Positions 22,091-31,530 of a stretch of DNA of 33,669 bases are shown here, one piece after another. Source of the stretch: Eubacterium sp. Its GTDB lineage: Bacteria > Bacillota > Clostridia > Lachnospirales > Lachnospiraceae. The position numbers were made by a program, and so were the translations under genes. The first letter of the stretch is position 1, and each line of letters opens with the position of its first letter. The notes beneath the pieces are model-generated. The model had not been told where the DNA came from. It did no database searches and worked only from the letters and a program-made list of their open reading frames with translations. Location: assembly GCA_017472565.1 (NCBI GenBank), contig JAFUPY010000057.1:1-33669 (forward strand), in the 5' to 3' direction.

Positions 22091-22187
22091 AGAGAGTTCC
22101 TTCGCAGGAAAAAAATTGGCTCTTACAAACCTTAGGACGGTTTGCGCGAGGCAATTTTCTTCCTGCTACGGGGATTCTCTTTTTTTA
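22091..22187 (+). ncRNA. Structured 3' terminator RNA with conserved 41-base core, copy 1
   Basis: The outer helix AGAGAGTTCC/GGGATTCTCT (22091-22100, 22171-22180), a GCAGGAA/TTCCTGC helix, then the core at 22115-22155, followed by a T run. The core is ATTGGCTC / TTA / CAAACC - loop TTAGGAC - GGTTTG / CGC / GAGGCAAT, so a G-G mismatch sits inside the lower stem and a 3x3 internal loop separates the two stems. The core is 38 of 41 bases identical to that at 31470-31510, while the outer helices are unrelated. It serves as the terminator of the second agcS. I cannot assign it to a known RNA family from memory. Confidence 0.75.
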
Positions 22188-22246
22188 TATTCTGATTTAT
22201 GGTATTCTAATTGTGTATGTAAATTTTTAGCGAAAGGGTAACCGAT

Positions 22247-25200
22247 ATGGCACTGCAGTTTATCATTGGTAGTTCCGGCAGTGGAAAGACGGATTGGATT
22301 TACCGAAAGATGCTTTCCATGGCGGAACAGAACAAGCAGAAAAGTTTTTATATGATTGTTCCTGAGCAGTTTACCATGCAGACGCAAAAGGCATTGGTAG
22401 AACGCTCTAATAACCATGCCATTTTAAATATTGACGTGGTCAGCTTTGACCGTCTGGCGTACCGTGTTTTTGATGAACTGGGAAAAACGGATCTGGTGGT
22501 GCTTGAGGATACCGGCAAAAATCTGATTTTGCGTAAACTGGCGGAGGATTGTAAGGAGCAGTTGACCACGCTGAAGCATCAGGTCCATAAGATCAGTTAC
22601 ATTGACCAGATCAAGTCTCTGATCTCAGAGTTTATGCAATATGGTCTGGAACCGGAGGATCTGGAATGTTATCTGGATCAAATGCAGACCGAATCTGCCC
22701 TTTATTATAAGTTGAAAGACATGCTCCTGCTTTATCAGGCGTTTGATACCTATTTGCGAGAAGGATATGTGACTTCGGAAAAGATTCTGGAAGTGCTGGC
22801 TCAGTCTGTGGAGGAGTCAGAGTTATTAAAGGGGGCTGTGTTTGCCTTTGATGGGTTTACCGGTTTTACTCCGGTGCAGATGAAGCTGGTGCGGGAATTG
22901 CTTTCTGTAGCCGAGACAAGCTATGTAAGTGTGACCATGGATCCGGATGTGGAGCTGTATGCAGATAAGGGTATGCAGGATCTGTTTTACATGAGCCGCA
23001 AGATGACTCGTTCCGTGGCAAGGCTTGCAGGGGATGTGGGCTGTGAGATCGCAGAGCCAATCTTTTTAAAGGCTTCCTGTGAGGATGCAGATATGTCAGG
23101 TACAGATGGGGAAGCATATTCTGGAGAGCTTCTTAGGGGAAGATTTTGCAATAATCCAGTGCTTGCTCACATGGAAAACAATCTGTTCCGTCCACGACAG
23201 TGTTCTTTTGAAAAGGAAACCGTGACAATTTGTCCGAAGACTGGCAAAACGCAATCCATAGAAGCGATCTCGATGCATTCTTTGGCAACACCGAGAGATG
23301 AACTGTTATATGCGGCCTCTCAGATTCGCAGCCTGATCAAACAGCATGGCTATCGCTATCAGGACTTTGCCATTGTCAGCGGCAATGTTGCCGGTTATGA
23401 AAAGTATGCCAGGGAAATCTTTGACATGTATGAGATTCCTTACTTTTCTGATGTAAAAGAGACGATTTACTATCATCCATTTACCGAATGGGTGAGAGCG
23501 TTTATAGAGATGATTGAAACGGGATTTGCCTATGACAGTGTGTTCCGTTATTTGCGATGTGGTCTGTCCGGATTTTCTATGGAAGAAATCGACATTCTGG
23601 ACAATTATGTGTTGGAGCGTGGTATCCGCAGCTTTCAGAAATGGAAGGAAAAGTGGGTGCATCCATCCAGACAGACCGGTCGTGGTATAAAGAAGACAGA
23701 GGAGGAAAAATTAGCAGCGCTGCTGCAGTTAAATGGACTGCGGGAGCGGTTTGTTGCCCAGGTTACGCCTGTTTATGAGCAGGTGGAAAAGGGGCAGGTG
23801 TCTGTGTTTTCCATGACCCAGGCATTGTATCAGGTCATGGTTGACCTTGCAATCCAGCAACAGTTAAAGGACAGGCAGGGAGCTCATGAGAAAGCAGGCA
23901 ACGAATATCTGGCGGCATCTTATGGACAGATTTATAAAATTGTCATTGACTTGCTGGACAAGGTGGTGGATTTGCTTGGCAATGAGACCATGTCTGTGCG
24001 GGAGTATGGAGAGATTCTGGATGCAGGATTTTTAGCAGCCAAGGTGGGAACCATTCCGCCGGGCGCGGATTGTGTTATCCTTGGTGACATTGAGCGAACC
24101 CGCCTGGATCACATCAAGGTGCTGTTTTTCCTTGGGGTAAACGATGGTATTGTACCAAAGATGGCAGACCGTAAAAATCTGTTGTCTCAGTATGACAGAG
24201 AACGTATGGCGGCAGATGCGATTGAACTGGCGCCAACCACCCGTGAACAGGTATTTTTACAGAAGTTTTATCTGTATTTGAATATGACAAAGCCAGAGGA
24301 TGCGCTTGTGATGACCTATGCCCGCATGGACAGTATGGGTACAGCGCAAAAGCCGTCCTATCTGGTGAATACGATCCGGCAGATGTTTCCTTGCCTTACT
24401 GTACAGGAAATCGAAGCGGATTTTAACGATGAAATGATGACTGCAAAAAGCAGTACAAAACAATATTTAAAAGGTTTGATGAATGCTCAGCAGGGATTGG
24501 TTTCCAGGGATTTTGCTGCCCTGCATCAGTGGCGCATGAACCAGCCGGCATACAGGCAAAGCACAGAACGATTGTTAGATGCCGCCTTTGCCGTCTTTGA
24601 TGGAGAAACACTTTCTCCGGAACTGGCAAAAAAGCTGTATGGAACAACCTTGTACAATTCAGTAACAAGGCTGGAACAGTTTTTCAAGTGTGCCTATGCA
24701 CATTTCCTTCAGTATGGGCTGCGCCTTGCGGAACGTTCGGAGTACAGTTTTGAGGCATCGGATATGGGAACCGTGTTCCATGATTCCATTGAGTGTTATT
24801 GCCGCAAAATGTGGGAAGCAGAGTATGACTGGTTTACCATTACAGAAGATGCCCAGGAGCGTATTCTTGGGGAGGCGGTTTCTGAGACACTTTTGTCTAT
24901 GGACACAGGTGTATTGTTGGATTCTGCCAGAAGTCAATATATGACCACACGGATTTCTAACATTCTGGGACGCAGTGTATGGGCACTGACCAAGCAGATT
25001 CGTAAGGGTAAGTTTGCGCCAATGGCATATGAAACATCCTTTTTCCAGGAGTTGGATCTGGAAGATGTTCAGATGGTGATAACAGGCAGAATTGATCGAC
25101 TGGATACCTACGAAAACGATCAGCAGATGTATGTAAAGGTCATGGATTACAAGTCCGGTAAGAAGGATTTTGACCTGCAGAATGTATATAATGGTCAGGG

Positions 25201-25777
25201 CTTGCAGCTTGCAGTGTACATGCACAGTGCTATTGAAAAACTGCAGGAAAAGTACAAGGATAAGGATGTGATTCCAGCAGGCATGCTGTACTATCATTTG
25301 GAGGATCCAATGGTGGAAGCAGAGGCCGGCATGGAGGAAGCCGATATTGACCAGAAGATTTTTGAAAAACTTCGCCCGACAGGATTGGTGAATGCAGATA
25401 CTGCAGTGTTAGATAAGCTGGATCTGCAGTTGACAGAAGCAAAGGGCAAGTCGGATGTAATCCCTGTAACCTTAAATAAAGACGGCTCTTTGAGTAAGCG
25501 CGGGTGCTCCACAGCAACCAGAGAGCAGTTTCAGATCTTGGATGATTTTGTGATAGACAAGATGAAACAGGCAGGAGTGGATATCATGAGCGGAATCATC
25601 GACCCGCATCCTCTTGCCACAGACACCATCGATGGCTGTGAGTGGTGTCCATATCAGGATATTTGTGGATTTGATGTGCGCATTCCCGGATATGAGAAAA
25701 ATCAGCCGGAGACATTTTCCGAGGAAGAACTCTGGGAGAAGATGTCTCAAAAGACAAGCCTGGAGGCAGGATTATGA
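22247..25777 (+). CDS. addB: AddB, subunit of the ATP-dependent helicase-nuclease AddAB
   Basis: This 1176-residue protein is AddB, which with AddA processes double-strand breaks and recognises Chi for RecA loading. It opens with a Walker A motif (IGSSGSGKT, residues 7-15). The C-terminal nuclease domain has D967-Y-K969 (VMDYKSGKKDFD). The four cysteines of the iron-sulphur staple are present: C815 (FFKCAYAHF) and C1131, C1134, C1140 (CEWCPYQDIC), the same spacing as in Bacillus AddB. Length is normal. A GAAAGGG lies before the ATG. The stop overlaps the addA start by four bases (ATGA), so the subunits are translationally coupled. Confidence 0.97.
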   Translation: MALQFIIGSSGSGKTDWIYRKMLSMAEQNKQKSFYMIVPEQFTMQTQKALVERSNNHAILNIDVVSFDRLAYRVFDELGKTDLVVLEDTGKNLILRKLAEDCKEQLTTLKHQVHKISYIDQIKSLISEFMQYGLEPEDLECYLDQMQTESALYYKLKDMLLLYQAFDTYLREGYVTSEKILEVLAQSVEESELLKGAVFAFDGFTGFTPVQMKLVRELLSVAETSYVSVTMDPDVELYADKGMQDLFYMSRKMTRSVARLAGDVGCEIAEPIFLKASCEDADMSGTDGEAYSGELLRGRFCNNPVLAHMENNLFRPRQCSFEKETVTICPKTGKTQSIEAISMHSLATPRDELLYAASQIRSLIKQHGYRYQDFAIVSGNVAGYEKYAREIFDMYEIPYFSDVKETIYYHPFTEWVRAFIEMIETGFAYDSVFRYLRCGLSGFSMEEIDILDNYVLERGIRSFQKWKEKWVHPSRQTGRGIKKTEEEKLAALLQLNGLRERFVAQVTPVYEQVEKGQVSVFSMTQALYQVMVDLAIQQQLKDRQGAHEKAGNEYLAASYGQIYKIVIDLLDKVVDLLGNETMSVREYGEILDAGFLAAKVGTIPPGADCVILGDIERTRLDHIKVLFFLGVNDGIVPKMADRKNLLSQYDRERMAADAIELAPTTREQVFLQKFYLYLNMTKPEDALVMTYARMDSMGTAQKPSYLVNTIRQMFPCLTVQEIEADFNDEMMTAKSSTKQYLKGLMNAQQGLVSRDFAALHQWRMNQPAYRQSTERLLDAAFAVFDGETLSPELAKKLYGTTLYNSVTRLEQFFKCAYAHFLQYGLRLAERSEYSFEASDMGTVFHDSIECYCRKMWEAEYDWFTITEDAQERILGEAVSETLLSMDTGVLLDSARSQYMTTRISNILGRSVWALTKQIRKGKFAPMAYETSFFQELDLEDVQMVITGRIDRLDTYENDQQMYVKVMDYKSGKKDFDLQNVYNGQGLQLAVYMHSAIEKLQEKYKDKDVIPAGMLYYHLEDPMVEAEAGMEEADIDQKIFEKLRPTGLVNADTAVLDKLDLQLTEAKGKSDVIPVTLNKDGSLSKRGCSTATREQFQILDDFVIDKMKQAGVDIMSGIIDPHPLATDTIDGCEWCPYQDICGFDVRIPGYEKNQPETFSEEELWEKMSQKTSLEAGL

Positions 25778-28700
25778 GTGTAAAGTGGACCGACAGACAA
25801 CAACAGGTCATAGATTTGCATAATAGAAACCTTTTGGTGGCAGCAGCAGCTGGTTCCGGTAAGACAGCGGTTTTGGTAGAGCGTATGATTCAGATGATCA
25901 CCCGCAAGGAAGCCCCTGTGGATATTGACCGGTTGCTGGTGGTAACGTTTACCAATGCAGCGGCAGCCCAGATGCGGGAACGAATTGGCGCAGCTCTTGA
26001 GGCGGCTCTAAAGGCGGATCCGGACAACGTGCACTTGCAGACCCAGGTGACGCTTCTTCATAATGCCCAGATTTCTACCATTCACAGCTTTGGTCTGCAT
26101 GTAATCCGCAATCATTTTTATCAGATTGACCTGGATCCGGCTTTTCGTATTGGTGATGAGCGTGAGATCGACATGCTAAAAGACGATGTGCTGGAAAAAG
26201 TAATGGAAGCCGCTTATGCAAAAGGCGACCAGACATTTTTGGATTTTGTGAAGGCCTATAGCAACACAAAAAATGATAAAAACATCTGCGAGATGATTTT
26301 GGCATTTCACAGCTATGCAGACAGTTATCCATGGCCATTAGAGTGGCTGGAAGGTTGTGTGGAACTGTATCAGTGCGATTCGGTAGAAAGCTTTAATCAG
26401 CAGCCCTGGGTCGGTGAATTGATGGCGTATGTCCACGAACTGACAGTCGGTTTTGAAGAACGGTTGTTTTATGCCCAGAGATTGGCATTGGAGCCGGAGG
26501 GACCACAGTTATTCGCAGAAACCATAGAAAAGGATCTTGCATTTTTGGATGCCTTACAGAAGTGTGAATCCTATTCTGCCTGTTATCAGTTGTTGACGGA
26601 CATGGAGTTTGCCCAGCTGTCCCGTAAAAAGCAGGTCTGTGATACCGCGTTACGAGAGTCCGTTAAGTCTATTCGCAATGATGTGAAAAAGCAGTTGGAA
26701 AAGCTGCGGGATACCTACTTTTCCTATGCACCGGCAGAGCAGGTACAGATGCTTGTGGATGAGCGTCCGATGATGGAAGTGCTGATCGGACTCACCAGGG
26801 ACTTTATGGAACGGTTTGCCAAAGCTAAGGATGAGAAAAATATCATTGACTTTGGAGACATAGAGCACTATACTTTAAAAATTTTGGTGGACGAAAAAAC
26901 CAAGCTGCCAACGGCAACTGCCAGAGAATATCAGGAGCGTTTCTGCGAAATTATGATTGATGAGTATCAGGACAGCAACTATGTCCAGGAAGCGCTTTTG
27001 ACAGCAGTTTCACGTCAGCAAAACGGAGAGAATAACATGTTCATGGTTGGGGACGTAAAGCAGAGTATTTACCGTTTCCGATTGGCGCGTCCGGAGCTTT
27101 TTATGGACAAGTACAGACGCTTTCAGACAGAGGATGCGGATGGTGGAAGTCAGCGTATCGACCTGCATCACAACTTCCGAAGCCGACCAGAGATTTTACA
27201 GTTTACCAATGATGTCTTTTTCCACATTATGGAGGAAGACATGGGAAATATTAGATACGATGATGAAGCGGCGCTGTATCCGGGCAGAGACTTTGAAGAA
27301 CCGCCAAAGCCAACCACATTTGTGCCAGAAGTCCTTGCTATCGTAGCGGAGAATGATATAGAAGACAAAATTGCCCATGAGGCGCGGGTGGTGGCCACCA
27401 GGATTCGTCAGATGACAGATCCGATGACCGCAGATGGGTATTGCCCGGAATATCGGGATATTGTCATTTTAGTCCATGCCATGAAGGGCTGGAGTGATAT
27501 CTTCTTAAAAGTATTTGCAGAGGAAGGGATTCCACTGATCAGTTCCTCAAGAAGCGGTTATTTTTCAGCGACTGAGGTGCAGACGGTACTTCAGCTTTTA
27601 AAGGTGCTGAACAATCCAAGACAGGATATTGCTCTGGCAGGGGTATTAAAGTCTCCAATTGGAGGCATGACTGCCACAGAGCTTGCCCAGATCAAGGCCG
27701 CTTTCCCGGAATTGACCTTCTATGAAGCTGTTGCAAGATGGAATGCTCTTACAGGAGAAGACGCAGCAGCGATTGTAAAAGAAAAAATTGCAGACAGTGA
27801 GCAGTTGTTGCAGATGCATGAAAAGGTAACTGGATTTTTTGCATTTGTATCCAGGATGAGGGAACAGATTCCGGACACGCCGATTCATGAACTGATTCAA
27901 AGGATTTATCAGGAGACAGGGTATCTTGATTATGTGACCGCTCTTCCCGGTGGCGAGCGTCGCCGAGCCAATCTGGATATGCTGGTGGAACTGGCGATTT
28001 CCTATGAAAACACCAGTTATCAGGGTCTGTTTGACTTTGTCCGCTATATTGAAAAAATGCTTCGTATGGAACTGGATTACGGTGAAGCGGAGCTTGTCAG
28101 CGAGCAGGAAAATGCAGTTCGCATGATGACCATTCACAAGAGTAAAGGTCTGGAATTCCCAGTGGTATTTGTCTGTGGCATGGGCAAAGAGTTCAATCTG
28201 ATGGGGCTTAACAATGCCTTGATTTTTCATCCAAAATACGGGGCAGGACTTCGCTGGCTTGGCAAGGAAAAAAGAGTAAAGAAAAATGCTCTGGCAAGAC
28301 AGGTCTTTGGTCTCTTAGAACGTCGGGAACTGTTAGGGGAAGAACAGCGACTGTTGTATGTTGCTCTGACCAGAGCAAAAGAAAAGCTGATTCTCACCGG
28401 TATCATCAAGGACAAGGAAAAGTACAATGGGTTTGCCTTGCATGAGCGAGAAGTGCTGTCATTTACAGAGCGTATGGATGCCAAATGCTTCTGGGACTGG
28501 GTATTGCCGGCGATTTACAGAGGCAATGTTTCCTGTAACCTGCAGTCAATGGATTCCAGTTATATTGAGCAGGGGCGCACATTGCAGATGATATCCCGCA
28601 CAAAACAACGGGAGCAGTTGTTGGAAGCATTAAAGCAGACAGACGAAGAAGCGTTTTCACAGGTCGATGCAATGCTGCGCTGGACCTACCCGCATGCAGC

Positions 28701-29367
28701 AAGTACGGCCTTAAAGCAGAAAGTATCCGTATCCGAAATCAAGCATCGATTCATGGAGCAGCAGAACCTGGAAGATGCAGTATCTCTCCACAAAGAGCAG
28801 GAAGTGATGCCATATATTCCACGATTTGCAGACCGCATCGATGAGGAAAATGCGGGAGCACTTCGCGGTACCGCCATGCATCGTTATCTGGAATGCTTTG
28901 ACTTTGCCAAAATGGCGGACGTGGGTGTTGCAGAACAGCTAGAAGCAATGAGCCAGTCCGGCAGATTATCCGATGACCTGCGGGGCAGACTCAACTTGAA
29001 ACAAATCGAACAATTCCTTTCCACCGACGAGGCAAAACGAATGGCAGCAGCGGATATAGCAGGCAATCTGTACCGGGAAAAACCATTTGTGATGTCCATT
29101 CCAGCATCGCAAGTCTGGGAAGGTGCATCTGAGGATGATCCGGTTTTAGTACAGGGTATCGTGGATGTATTCTGGATGGAAGAGGACGGCATTACGTTGC
29201 TTGATTACAAGACAGATGCGGTGTCTGAACCAGAAGAGTTGGTGCGACGCTATAAAGTGCAGTTAGAATTATACGCGGGAGCATTATCTCGAGTATTTGA
29301 CAATTGCAAGGTAAAGGATATTTTGATATATTCATTTAAGTTAAATAAAATGATTTCTATGGAGTAA
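25774..29367 (+). CDS. addA: AddA, helicase-nuclease subunit of AddAB
   Basis: This is a 1197-residue UvrD/Rep-type SF1A helicase with a C-terminal nuclease domain. Motifs include Walker A AAAGSGKT (K30), TFTNAAAAQMRERI (motif Ia), D396-E397 in DEYQDSN (motif II), GDVKQSIYRFR (motif III), MTIHKSKGLEFPVVF (motif V) and LLYVALTRAKEKL (motif VI). The nuclease signature is LLDYKTDAV with D1144 and K1146. It unwinds DNA in complex with AddB and cuts one strand. It begins at the ATGA overlap with addB and ends six bases before the maf gene. Confidence 0.97.
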   Translation: MSVKWTDRQQQVIDLHNRNLLVAAAAGSGKTAVLVERMIQMITRKEAPVDIDRLLVVTFTNAAAAQMRERIGAALEAALKADPDNVHLQTQVTLLHNAQISTIHSFGLHVIRNHFYQIDLDPAFRIGDEREIDMLKDDVLEKVMEAAYAKGDQTFLDFVKAYSNTKNDKNICEMILAFHSYADSYPWPLEWLEGCVELYQCDSVESFNQQPWVGELMAYVHELTVGFEERLFYAQRLALEPEGPQLFAETIEKDLAFLDALQKCESYSACYQLLTDMEFAQLSRKKQVCDTALRESVKSIRNDVKKQLEKLRDTYFSYAPAEQVQMLVDERPMMEVLIGLTRDFMERFAKAKDEKNIIDFGDIEHYTLKILVDEKTKLPTATAREYQERFCEIMIDEYQDSNYVQEALLTAVSRQQNGENNMFMVGDVKQSIYRFRLARPELFMDKYRRFQTEDADGGSQRIDLHHNFRSRPEILQFTNDVFFHIMEEDMGNIRYDDEAALYPGRDFEEPPKPTTFVPEVLAIVAENDIEDKIAHEARVVATRIRQMTDPMTADGYCPEYRDIVILVHAMKGWSDIFLKVFAEEGIPLISSSRSGYFSATEVQTVLQLLKVLNNPRQDIALAGVLKSPIGGMTATELAQIKAAFPELTFYEAVARWNALTGEDAAAIVKEKIADSEQLLQMHEKVTGFFAFVSRMREQIPDTPIHELIQRIYQETGYLDYVTALPGGERRRANLDMLVELAISYENTSYQGLFDFVRYIEKMLRMELDYGEAELVSEQENAVRMMTIHKSKGLEFPVVFVCGMGKEFNLMGLNNALIFHPKYGAGLRWLGKEKRVKKNALARQVFGLLERRELLGEEQRLLYVALTRAKEKLILTGIIKDKEKYNGFALHEREVLSFTERMDAKCFWDWVLPAIYRGNVSCNLQSMDSSYIEQGRTLQMISRTKQREQLLEALKQTDEEAFSQVDAMLRWTYPHAASTALKQKVSVSEIKHRFMEQQNLEDAVSLHKEQEVMPYIPRFADRIDEENAGALRGTAMHRYLECFDFAKMADVGVAEQLEAMSQSGRLSDDLRGRLNLKQIEQFLSTDEAKRMAAADIAGNLYREKPFVMSIPASQVWEGASEDDPVLVQGIVDVFWMEEDGITLLDYKTDAVSEPEELVRRYKVQLELYAGALSRVFDNCKVKDILIYSFKLNKMISME

Positions 29368-29372
29368 CAAAC

Positions 29373-30125
29373 ATGATCAAATGGGTGTTGGCGTCCAAAT
29401 CGCCAAGAAGAAAAGAATTATTTGAGCAGATGGAGGTTCCTTTTGAAATCCATCCGTCTGTTGGAGAAGAACATATTACAACCACGGATCCGGAAGTGGC
29501 AGTTGTGCAGTTGGCAGAGCAGAAAGCACAGGAAGTGGCACTGTTGTACATGAATATTATGGATGCCCAGTTGTCCTCTACCGTACAGTGGATGATGGAA
29601 GAACGCAATCAGGAATACAGCAAGGAATCCAACCAGAAGGTGGATGGATATATGATTGTTGGCGCTGATACTATCGTGGTTTACGAAGGCCAGATTTTAG
29701 GCAAGCCAAAGGACGAGGAAGAAGCGATTGCCATGCTGGAAAAGCTGTCCGGAAAGACTCATCAGGTGTACACGGGAGTTTGTCAGATCCTGATTACATC
29801 CAAGGGAATGGACACTAACAGCTTCTTTGAAAAAACAGATGTGACCTTCCATCGTCTGCGCTACAGCGAGATTCAGTCTTATGTAAAAAGCGGCGACCCT
29901 ATGGACAAAGCCGGAGCGTATGGGATTCAGGGCAAGTTTGCTCTCTATGTGAAAAAGATTGATGGAGACTACAACAATGTAGTAGGTCTGCCAATCAGTA
30001 AGTTATATCAGGAAACAAGAAGAATGTTTCCACTGGTATTTCTTCCGACCGGATGCAGTTGTGGAAAGGAAGGCTGCAACTGTGATGTGCAGGGGCTGAT
30101 CAATCTCTCAAAACAGGATTTTTAA
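29373..30125 (+). CDS. maf: Maf family nucleoside triphosphate pyrophosphatase with Cys-rich tail
   Basis: Maf proteins hydrolyse dTTP/UTP or modified nucleotides to monophosphates and affect septum formation. Hallmarks seen are ASKSPRRKEL at the N-terminus, the catalytic D99 in VGADTIV, GKPKDEEEA, LSGKTHQVYTGV and MDKAGAYGIQG. At 250 residues it is longer than the usual 185-200. An insert of about 25-30 residues (about 60-90, including TVQWMMEERNQEYSKES) precedes the catalytic strand, and the tail has C228-S-C230...C235-N-C237, a possible metal site not part of standard Maf. It lies six bases after addA and is probably cotranscribed. Confidence 0.93.
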   Translation: MIKWVLASKSPRRKELFEQMEVPFEIHPSVGEEHITTTDPEVAVVQLAEQKAQEVALLYMNIMDAQLSSTVQWMMEERNQEYSKESNQKVDGYMIVGADTIVVYEGQILGKPKDEEEAIAMLEKLSGKTHQVYTGVCQILITSKGMDTNSFFEKTDVTFHRLRYSEIQSYVKSGDPMDKAGAYGIQGKFALYVKKIDGDYNNVVGLPISKLYQETRRMFPLVFLPTGCSCGKEGCNCDVQGLINLSKQDF

Positions 30126-30135
30126 GTTAACTTAA
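30122..30135. other. Perfect 14-base palindrome after maf
   Basis: TTAAGTTAACTTAA overlaps the maf stop codon and is followed by six A residues. It could be a protein-binding site before the small acidic gene. As RNA the stem has only two G-C pairs and no loop, so a terminator is unlikely. Confidence 0.4.
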
Positions 30136-30192
30136 AAAAGTTAGAATTAAAACAACGTAGGATTTAAGTGAACAATCAAAGGAGGATCCTTC

Positions 30193-30453
30193 ATGGCAAT
30201 GTATGAAAAAATCGTTTTGGATACATTTTTAGAAAAACAGTTGCAGCTGTTCCCAGAAACAGTGGCAGAAGATGCTGAGGAAGCAGATGATTTCTTAGAC
30301 ATGATGATGGCAGTTGTCTGCAAGAACTTAAAAGAAGTAAAAAAATACTTAGAAGACAGCGATGCGGATATCGTTGGTATGAGCGATCAGGAAATTGAAG
30401 AATCCGCAGAAGTATTCAAGCTTCCAGATGGCAGATATCTGGTGGTACTGTAA
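30193..30453 (+). CDS. Small acidic hypothetical protein
   Basis: This 86-residue protein is strongly acidic (AEDAEEADDFLDMMMAV; EDSDADIVGMSDQEIEESAEVF) with no membrane segment or cysteine cluster (one Cys). An excellent AAAGGAGG (30178-30185) lies seven bases upstream, so it is probably well translated. The C-terminal LPDGRYLVVL suggests a small beta hairpin after helical segments. I do not recognise the family. It is placed between maf and the parvulin-like lipoprotein gene, whose ribosome binding site overlaps its stop codon, so the two are likely coupled. Confidence 0.8.
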   Translation: MAMYEKIVLDTFLEKQLQLFPETVAEDAEEADDFLDMMMAVVCKNLKEVKKYLEDSDADIVGMSDQEIEESAEVFKLPDGRYLVVL

Positions 30454-30466
30454 GGAGATTGTCCGT

Positions 30467-31441
30467 ATGCGAAAGATGAAAATAATAGCATTTTTGATGG
30501 CAGCAGTGCTGCTCGTAGCCAGTGTGGTTGGCTGCTCTGGCGGTGCGTCATCCACAAGTGCGGTTTTTAAGATTGGCAAAGAAAAATGCTCCATGACAGA
30601 AGCGAAGATTCTGCTGGTGAATTACCAGAATCAGTATCGTGATGTGTATGGGGTAGATCTTTGGAAAGCTACAGAAAATGACAATCAGGAGCTGGAAAGC
30701 TACATCAAGGATCTGACCATTTCTCAGCTCGCTGAGATTTATATGATGGCATATATTGGTGAAGATCAGGATATGGAACTGACAGACGTAGAATTAGAGC
30801 ATGTTCAGGCGGCAGCAGCGGCGTATTATGGCTCTTTAAACGATGCAGAAAAGGATTATTTTGGTGCATCTGAAAAAGACATGGAAGCACTGTATGAAAA
30901 GTATGCGATGGCAAGAAAAGTGTTTGCTACATTGACACAGAACGTTAGTCAGGAAGTTAGCGATGATGATGCCAGAGTCATGTCCGTGATGCAGATTTAT
31001 ACGGAGGACAAAGCAACAGCAACGACTGCATACAACAAAGTAAAAAGTGGAAGCGAGTTTTCTGCAGTGGCTGCTACTTATGACGAGTCAGGCACAATTA
31101 ATACAACCGTTGATCGTCTGTCAGTGCCAGCAGAAGCAGAAGATGCAGTGTTTGACCTGTCCAATGAAGAATATACACCTGTGCTTGAAACCGCAGATGG
31201 ATATTATATTTACTATTGTGTAAATAATTATGAAGAAAGTTTGACAGAAGAAAACAAAGAAAAAGTATTGGCGGCCCGCATGGAAGAAGCAGTGGCGTCT
31301 ACCTATGAAACCTATGCAGCGTCTACGGATTCCAGGATGTATGCAGATGCCTGGGAACAGGTGAAGGTCAATACAGACGAAGCTCTTACAACTATTACCT
31401 TCTTCGATGTGTTTGAAGAGTATTGTGGGGCAGATTATTAA
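30467..31441 (+). CDS. Parvulin/PrsA-like lipoprotein
   Basis: This is a 324-residue secreted lipoprotein. The signal peptide MRKMKIIAFLMAAVLLVASVVG ends in a lipobox with the lipidated C23. A SurA/PrsA-type N-terminal helical region follows, then a PpiC-like segment (residues about 165-260: KVKSGSEFSAVAATYDESG, DRLSVPAEAEDAVFDLSNEEYTPVLETADGYYIYY). The usual parvulin active-site His and Cys/Asp residues are not evident, so it is probably a folding chaperone more than an isomerase. The start follows AAGGAG (30452-30457), which overlaps the preceding stop; an in-frame ATG 24 codons earlier falls inside the upstream gene and would spoil the signal peptide. Confidence 0.87.
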   Translation: MRKMKIIAFLMAAVLLVASVVGCSGGASSTSAVFKIGKEKCSMTEAKILLVNYQNQYRDVYGVDLWKATENDNQELESYIKDLTISQLAEIYMMAYIGEDQDMELTDVELEHVQAAAAAYYGSLNDAEKDYFGASEKDMEALYEKYAMARKVFATLTQNVSQEVSDDDARVMSVMQIYTEDKATATTAYNKVKSGSEFSAVAATYDESGTINTTVDRLSVPAEAEDAVFDLSNEEYTPVLETADGYYIYYCVNNYEESLTEENKEKVLAARMEEAVASTYETYAASTDSRMYADAWEQVKVNTDEALTTITFFDVFEEYCGADY

Positions 31442-31455
31442 TAGAATTGTTAAAT

Positions 31456-31530
31456 GAGACTGAAAAAATATTGGCTCTTAAAAACCTTAGAACGGTTTTC
31501 GCGAGGCAATATTTCTTTCAGTCTCTTTTT
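31456..31530 (+). ncRNA. Structured 3' terminator RNA with conserved 41-base core, copy 2
   Basis: A perfect outer helix GAGACTGAAA/TTTCAGTCTC (31456-31465, 31516-31525) continues through an A-U stretch into the core at 31470-31510, and a T run follows. The core repeats that at 22115-22155 with three changes: one compensatory pair (C-G at 22126/22144 becomes A-T at 31481/31499) and one loop G to A. The G-G mismatch, the TTA/CGC internal loop and a single unpaired C on the 3' side of the A-U helix are the same in both. It ends the lipoprotein transcript and faces the convergent htpG gene. Confidence 0.75.

Follow-up and report, generated by a model that had tools for sequence, protein, structure and literature searches.

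The described systems closest to the hairpin family reported here are the REPs, which occur with TnpA-REP/RAYT transposases, and the IS200/IS605 elements, which have non-autonomous derivatives. Two sources present REPs as imperfect palindromes scattered between genes, with mismatches that are conserved (PMC3733652, PMC8266576), and located chiefly between unidirectional and convergent genes (PMC3733652); in E. coli, the stem mismatches are required by the transposase and GTAG precedes the hairpin (PMC8266576). PMC2267715 counts 92 families of small stem-loop repeats in 40 genomes and reports uptake sequences that pair as terminator hairpins, and PMC3049150 concerns the small repeats BOX and RUP of pneumococcus.

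Here we analyze a stretch of 33,669 nt (the window) on the forward strand of contig JAFUPY010000057.1 from Eubacterium sp. (Lachnospiraceae; assembly GCA_017472565.1, 2.1 Mb, 68.6% complete). We think it likely that two hairpins in this window belong to a new family of small imperfect palindromes that is restricted to its species and resembles REPs in its mobile-type behavior, some of the copies nested in terminator-like stems and part of them probably recruited as terminators. As with REPs, the copies are dispersed, intergenic and imperfectly palindromic with kept mismatches, they are enriched between unidirectional and convergent genes, where most core 1 copies lie, and GTAG sometimes stands at the hairpin foot. 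REPs are palindromes of 20–50 bases with the tetranucleotide GTAG (or CGTC) at one end. The host core has 41 bases, but a whole class A unit with its ends is longer, at about 80 bases, and unlike REPs the element has several internal loops, exchangeable cores and terminator stems. GTAG is found at the foot of 7 of the 25 class A and core 2 copies read on one strand, the others having GAAG (8), GGAG (3) or another or unreadable tetranucleotide (7).

The likeness to IS200/IS605 derivatives lies in folded single-strand hairpins whose mismatched bases serve as recognition sites (PMC8266576). Those derivatives have a left end and a right end apart from each other, whereas the host element is a single composite hairpin. 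A search of the host assembly (68.6% complete) with the Pfam Y1_Tnp profile, positive on an E. coli control, found no intact Y1-type transposase and one broken tnpA. This tnpA lies beside a TnpB-like ORF of 371 aa in an IS605-type locus (L083:1845-3226, host contig C1), the sole one in the host; by eye no such hairpin surrounds it, and an IS605 or REP transposase as the mobilizer is unsupported. Going by description, the family also resembles other small stem-loop repeats in being short, intergenic, foldable and limited to a species or genus. Uptake sequences in terminators are likewise repeats that supply terminator stems, but there two short words form the stem, whereas here a mismatched hairpin forms its tip or inside. 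Among the papers that literature searches returned, we recognized none describing this hairpin family.

Two hairpins in the window

The two 41-base cores that drew attention to this DNA are confirmed in sequence and fold. Core 1 lies on the forward strand at 22115..22155 (copy 1) and 31470..31510 (copy 2), with covariance-model matches at 22111-22159 (77.7 bits) and 31466-31514 (76.5 bits). The copies are identical at 38 of 41 positions, and the three differences are a compensatory change from a C-G to an A-U pair and one loop base. In each fold, G.G stands as a mismatch, TTA faces CGC across an internal loop and TTAGNAC forms the terminal loop; in copy 1, TTA occupies 22123-22125, CGC 22145-22147 and the terminal loop 22132-22138. 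The full hairpins are far more stable than shuffled sequences (z-scores of -7.27 and -7.31), and at up to three mismatches the window holds these two copies only, against none in 100 shuffles.

Around copy 1, alignment with other class A copies delimits a whole class A element at 22096..22175 on the same strand, laid out as left end GTTCC, loop TTC, GCAGG ... CCTGC, loop TAC and right end GGGGAT. This element is enclosed, downstream of agcS, by a terminator-like outer stem AGAGAG / TTCTCT with a T run (22091..22186, forward strand; sequence and fold). Copy 2 lies in a class B terminator-like hairpin, GAGACTGAAA / TTTCAGTCTC followed by TTTTT, at 31456..31530 on the forward strand; sequence, fold and gene families place it between convergent genes for a PPIase-like lipoprotein and htpG.

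The preliminary description held that the outer helices share no sequence. They do differ between copies 1 and 2, but copy 1 contains the further conserved layer with class A ends (22096-22175), and copy 2 belongs to a stem class with sequence features common to other copies: GCNGG beside an A-tract occurs in 13 of 23 class B copies, copy 2 itself being without it, and many class A copies also have GCNGG. Its observation that a gene's 3' end carries a terminator-like stem with a T run stands, by sequence and fold, for both window copies; the same arrangement recurs in many class B copies and is absent from class A copies within operons. A consensus terminator scan (loops of 3–8 bases) missed copy 2 and picked out a different, small hairpin at copy 1, because the hairpins of the family differ in shape from the consensus scanned.

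The suggestion that the hairpin could be a known Rfam family did not hold up. At gathering score, a search of the whole window returned a glycine riboswitch aptamer alone (RF00504, 18688-18807, 54.1 bits) and no hit at either copy; at E values up to 10, the matches to copy 1 were 13 microRNA models and a single lncRNA model, none of which reached its gathering score.

Cores, ends and coreless loops in the host genome

A pattern search of the host genome at up to three mismatches found core 1 at 33 places, compared with none for a reversed control pattern. The core 1 covariance model, built from 30 copies, returned 75 matches, which resolve into at least 42 distinct places (a lower bound, from 150 scored of 911 host candidates) and 33 opposite-strand rows of the same palindromes. 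In 419 kb comprising the window and 20 further stretches, the latter drawn from contigs on which copies had previously been located, the model found 12 places and one chance-level match (E 2.4). In an alignment of 24 distinct rows, pairing holds in 98.8% of stem cells and five pairs change on both sides, an outcome reached by none of 500 shuffles and none of six slid versions. The internal loop is conserved alongside: among the 42 copies, 35 keep the G.G mismatch and 41 the 5' TTA, whereas the 3' side reads CGC in 22 and CTC in 10; two of the rows counted (L067 and L069) are shifted by one base. A single copy, L068, was noted as fully paired. These data support the preliminary description in several points: the hairpin has stems that covary around a conserved internal loop, it recurs behind unrelated genes, and it frequently lies within a terminator-like stem or serves as one.

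We sorted the 42 copies, partly by eye, into 19 of class A or degenerate class A and 23 of class B. Class A copies have the ends GTWCCTNCGC (left) and GCTWCGGGGATA (right) and a second 3x3 internal loop, TNC/TWC. In class B, the core runs directly into the stem, usually with T-rich sequence after it. Five class A copies (L001, which is window copy 1, L007, L015, L023 and L067) are enclosed by a longer terminator-like stem, a call of nesting made partly by eye; in L015 no T run follows that stem directly. Beside one class B copy (L018), two further 3'-half copies of the element stand about 20–110 bases past the core.

Searching for the ends led to elements with similar ends around a different core, AAAAG-CCC-GCTGC-TAANAATC-GCAGC-TTAC-CTTTT (core 2). 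The end patterns are noisy, with 102 left-end matches against 70 in the control and 70 right-end matches against 35. A core 2 model built from four copies identifies 11 elements in the host. In their 11 forward rows, four wrong-strand rows having been left out of the alignment, 241 of 250 cells pair and 12 pairs change on both sides, and none of 500 shuffles reaches as high; in L190 the stems are replaced and CCC/TTAC is kept. The core 2 model also matches seven class A copies of core 1 (E 6.7e-7 to 1.1e-3), among them window copy 1 at 22096-22176 (E 1.2e-5), with scores no better than those of the wrong strand of the model's own copies. The sequences themselves show common ends on the two cores, for which these cross-matches are supportive, though not decisive.

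Five core 2 elements also lie inside terminator-like stems, three of which start with GGGGCTGTTG or a near variant. Three terminator-like loops hold the ends with no core (L118, L119 and L176), and we read them as deletion remnants. No gene-carrying version was seen among the elements reached, unsystematically, through the end patterns. On host contig C49, a core 2 element (L188) is directly followed by the coreless terminator L176, and both share GGGGCTGTTG; on contig C62, a core 2 element of about 126 bases (L166 / L192) has a second hairpin between its core and its right end.

Gene context and distribution among relatives

The 42 core 1 and 11 core 2 copies are mostly intergenic. By a longest-ORF script, core 1 lies between tandem genes in 21 cases, convergent genes in 18 and divergent genes in one, two copies being without known neighbors. 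Relative to a background of gaps of at least 60 bases sampled from contigs already known to carry copies, convergent gaps are enriched (18 of 40 copies, against 8.6% of bases or 12.9% of gaps; the count takes in L073, whose downstream ORF looks spurious, and leaves out L007 and L066) and divergent gaps nearly avoided (1 of 40, against 18% of gap bases). The shared orientation of the two window copies does not extend to the family: between tandem genes, 17 of 29 copies point with the genes (13 of 21 for core 1 pooled with 4 of 8 for core 2, p 0.46). By eye, the core of convergent copies is often nearer the gene it points away from, and in L017 and L027 the T run is on the strand opposite to the core.

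Neither the core 1 nor the core 2 model matches the congener, the one other genome of the genus compared. Among 396 other genomes of the family, covered by 397-genome scans with stricter filters than in the host and about 12–15 candidates scored per genome, the core 1 model gave one weak look-alike, in Frisingicoccus caecimuris; at 40.8 bits, it falls within the range of the wrong strand of true copies (30 to 56 bits). Over the contigs of the species set, from which near relatives of the window are possibly missing, a tight pattern matched nowhere and a loose one once, at that same Frisingicoccus terminator; a loose core 1 pattern had no match in viral contigs. The single core 2 match in the 396 genomes (L207, genome G143) looks on inspection like an ordinary hairpin that lacks the loops. 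The covariance-model search proposed in the preliminary description yields many covarying copies in the host and no clear ones in related genomes. Two observations that it had named as evidence against its reading, absence from relatives and copies in the opposite orientation, are, at least in part, what we find.

The Frisingicoccus terminator (L061 / L082:4054-4084) has the core 1 architecture, and the gene it follows is homologous to the one preceding host copy L026. We considered whether the family originated from the terminator of that one gene, and find this improbable; the gene is near-universal (377 of 397 genomes), and by eye no such hairpin is present at 28 other loci. We take the look-alike as a probable coincidence.

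Syntenic junctions could be compared directly. At 10 of 23 loci compared by script, both neighboring genes are adjacent in the congener, and the element is absent at all 10, the congener being too diverged for base-exact empty sites. With genes named from a reading of their proteins, the agcS-addB junction (window copy 1) and that of L020 have unrelated ordinary terminators in the congener, and the pairs rlmB-sigma factor, engB-znuA and lon-engB have almost no gap between them there. No target-site duplication was found in 13 class A copies (567 offset and length trials, best p 0.045), a weak test given uncertain boundaries.

Explanations for the family

The tally so far, at least 42 core 1 copies, 11 core 2 elements and three coreless remnants, shows ends and mismatched internal loops largely kept while the stems covary in both cores. 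Mobile palindromes are expected to leave such traces: restriction to one lineage, occurrence in either orientation, different cores with the same ends, and remnants that have lost the core. Copies would spread as DNA, with a putative mobilizing enzyme acting on the folded single strand, which it might recognize, by analogy with TnpA-REP and the IS200/IS605 transposases, from the mismatches that stay in place, a conserved 5' arm and the hairpin foot. The copies would insert or persist at the 3' ends of genes, some of them within terminator-like stems. Position and sequence suggest that class B copies terminate transcription and may have arisen from class A at convergent gene ends, where they would have become intrinsic, often two-way, terminators.

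The preliminary description took selection for an RNA structure inside a terminator as the simplest reading. Its structural part stands; a transcript-oriented RNA element is disfavored because clear copies are missing from relatives and copies lie in both orientations relative to genes. We regard as unlikely, though deserving of weight, the proposal that the hairpin is an mRNA 3'-end binding site for an RNA-binding protein or nuclease, acting in termination, stability or the release of a small RNA and multiplied because it was useful. Covarying stems with a kept loop would suit such a site, but covariation by itself does not imply an RNA role, because hairpin-templated repair could yield it without selection on RNA. 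The position of copies at gene 3' ends, their scarcity between divergent genes and the tendency of convergent cores to lie nearer the gene they point away from also fit, whereas an orientation of 17 of 29 with tandem genes, class A copies in operons that lack them at the syntenic congener junctions and the absence from the congener do not. The stronger keeping of the 5' TTA (41 of 42) than of the 3' side counts against the mobile reading, since an RNA- or strand-specific function would also explain it. That reading is further weakened by the negative searches for a mobilizing gene (Y1_Tnp profile, 68.6% complete assembly) and for a target-site duplication.

Passive spread, in which recombination or template switching among similar terminator palindromes homogenized their tips with no dedicated mobile element, seems to us improbable; operon copies at places where the congener junction has no terminator, and two cores sharing conserved class A ends, are hard to reconcile with it, even if the fully paired L068 looks as though its other arm had served as template and GCNGG is common to 13 of 23 class B stems. 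Least probable of all, and by our estimate very much so, is a DNA recognition sequence, such as an uptake signal or nucleoid-protein site, maintained in terminators as uptake sequences are in certain other bacteria. Many near-identical intergenic copies in one species, and the terminator-pairing uptake sequences mentioned above, would agree with it; the unit, however, is no short word but a lengthy hairpin with mismatches, whose cores can be exchanged. With 42 copies in 2.1 Mb, core 1 is also sparse for an uptake sequence.

A more speculative extension of the mobile-palindrome reading, which we regard as unlikely, is a new class of modular mobile hairpin that has intrinsic terminators as its niche. 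With conserved ends and interchangeable covarying cores, it would enter or become the interior of terminators. An enzyme unlike the known REP transposases might copy it by way of a single strand in folded form, either DNA or the terminated 3' end of an RNA. More broadly, the family suggests a route by which a mobile-type repeat could build and spread transcription terminators. With its pair of cores, its end motifs and the syntenic junctions that lack it, it offers a concrete handle on what moves such palindromes. It also advises caution, as covarying repeats in terminators may mimic regulatory RNAs. Separately, host contig C5 contains a 12-base tandem repeat of in-frame length, GAAAAAGGAGCC, in at least five units (L125:2330-2410).
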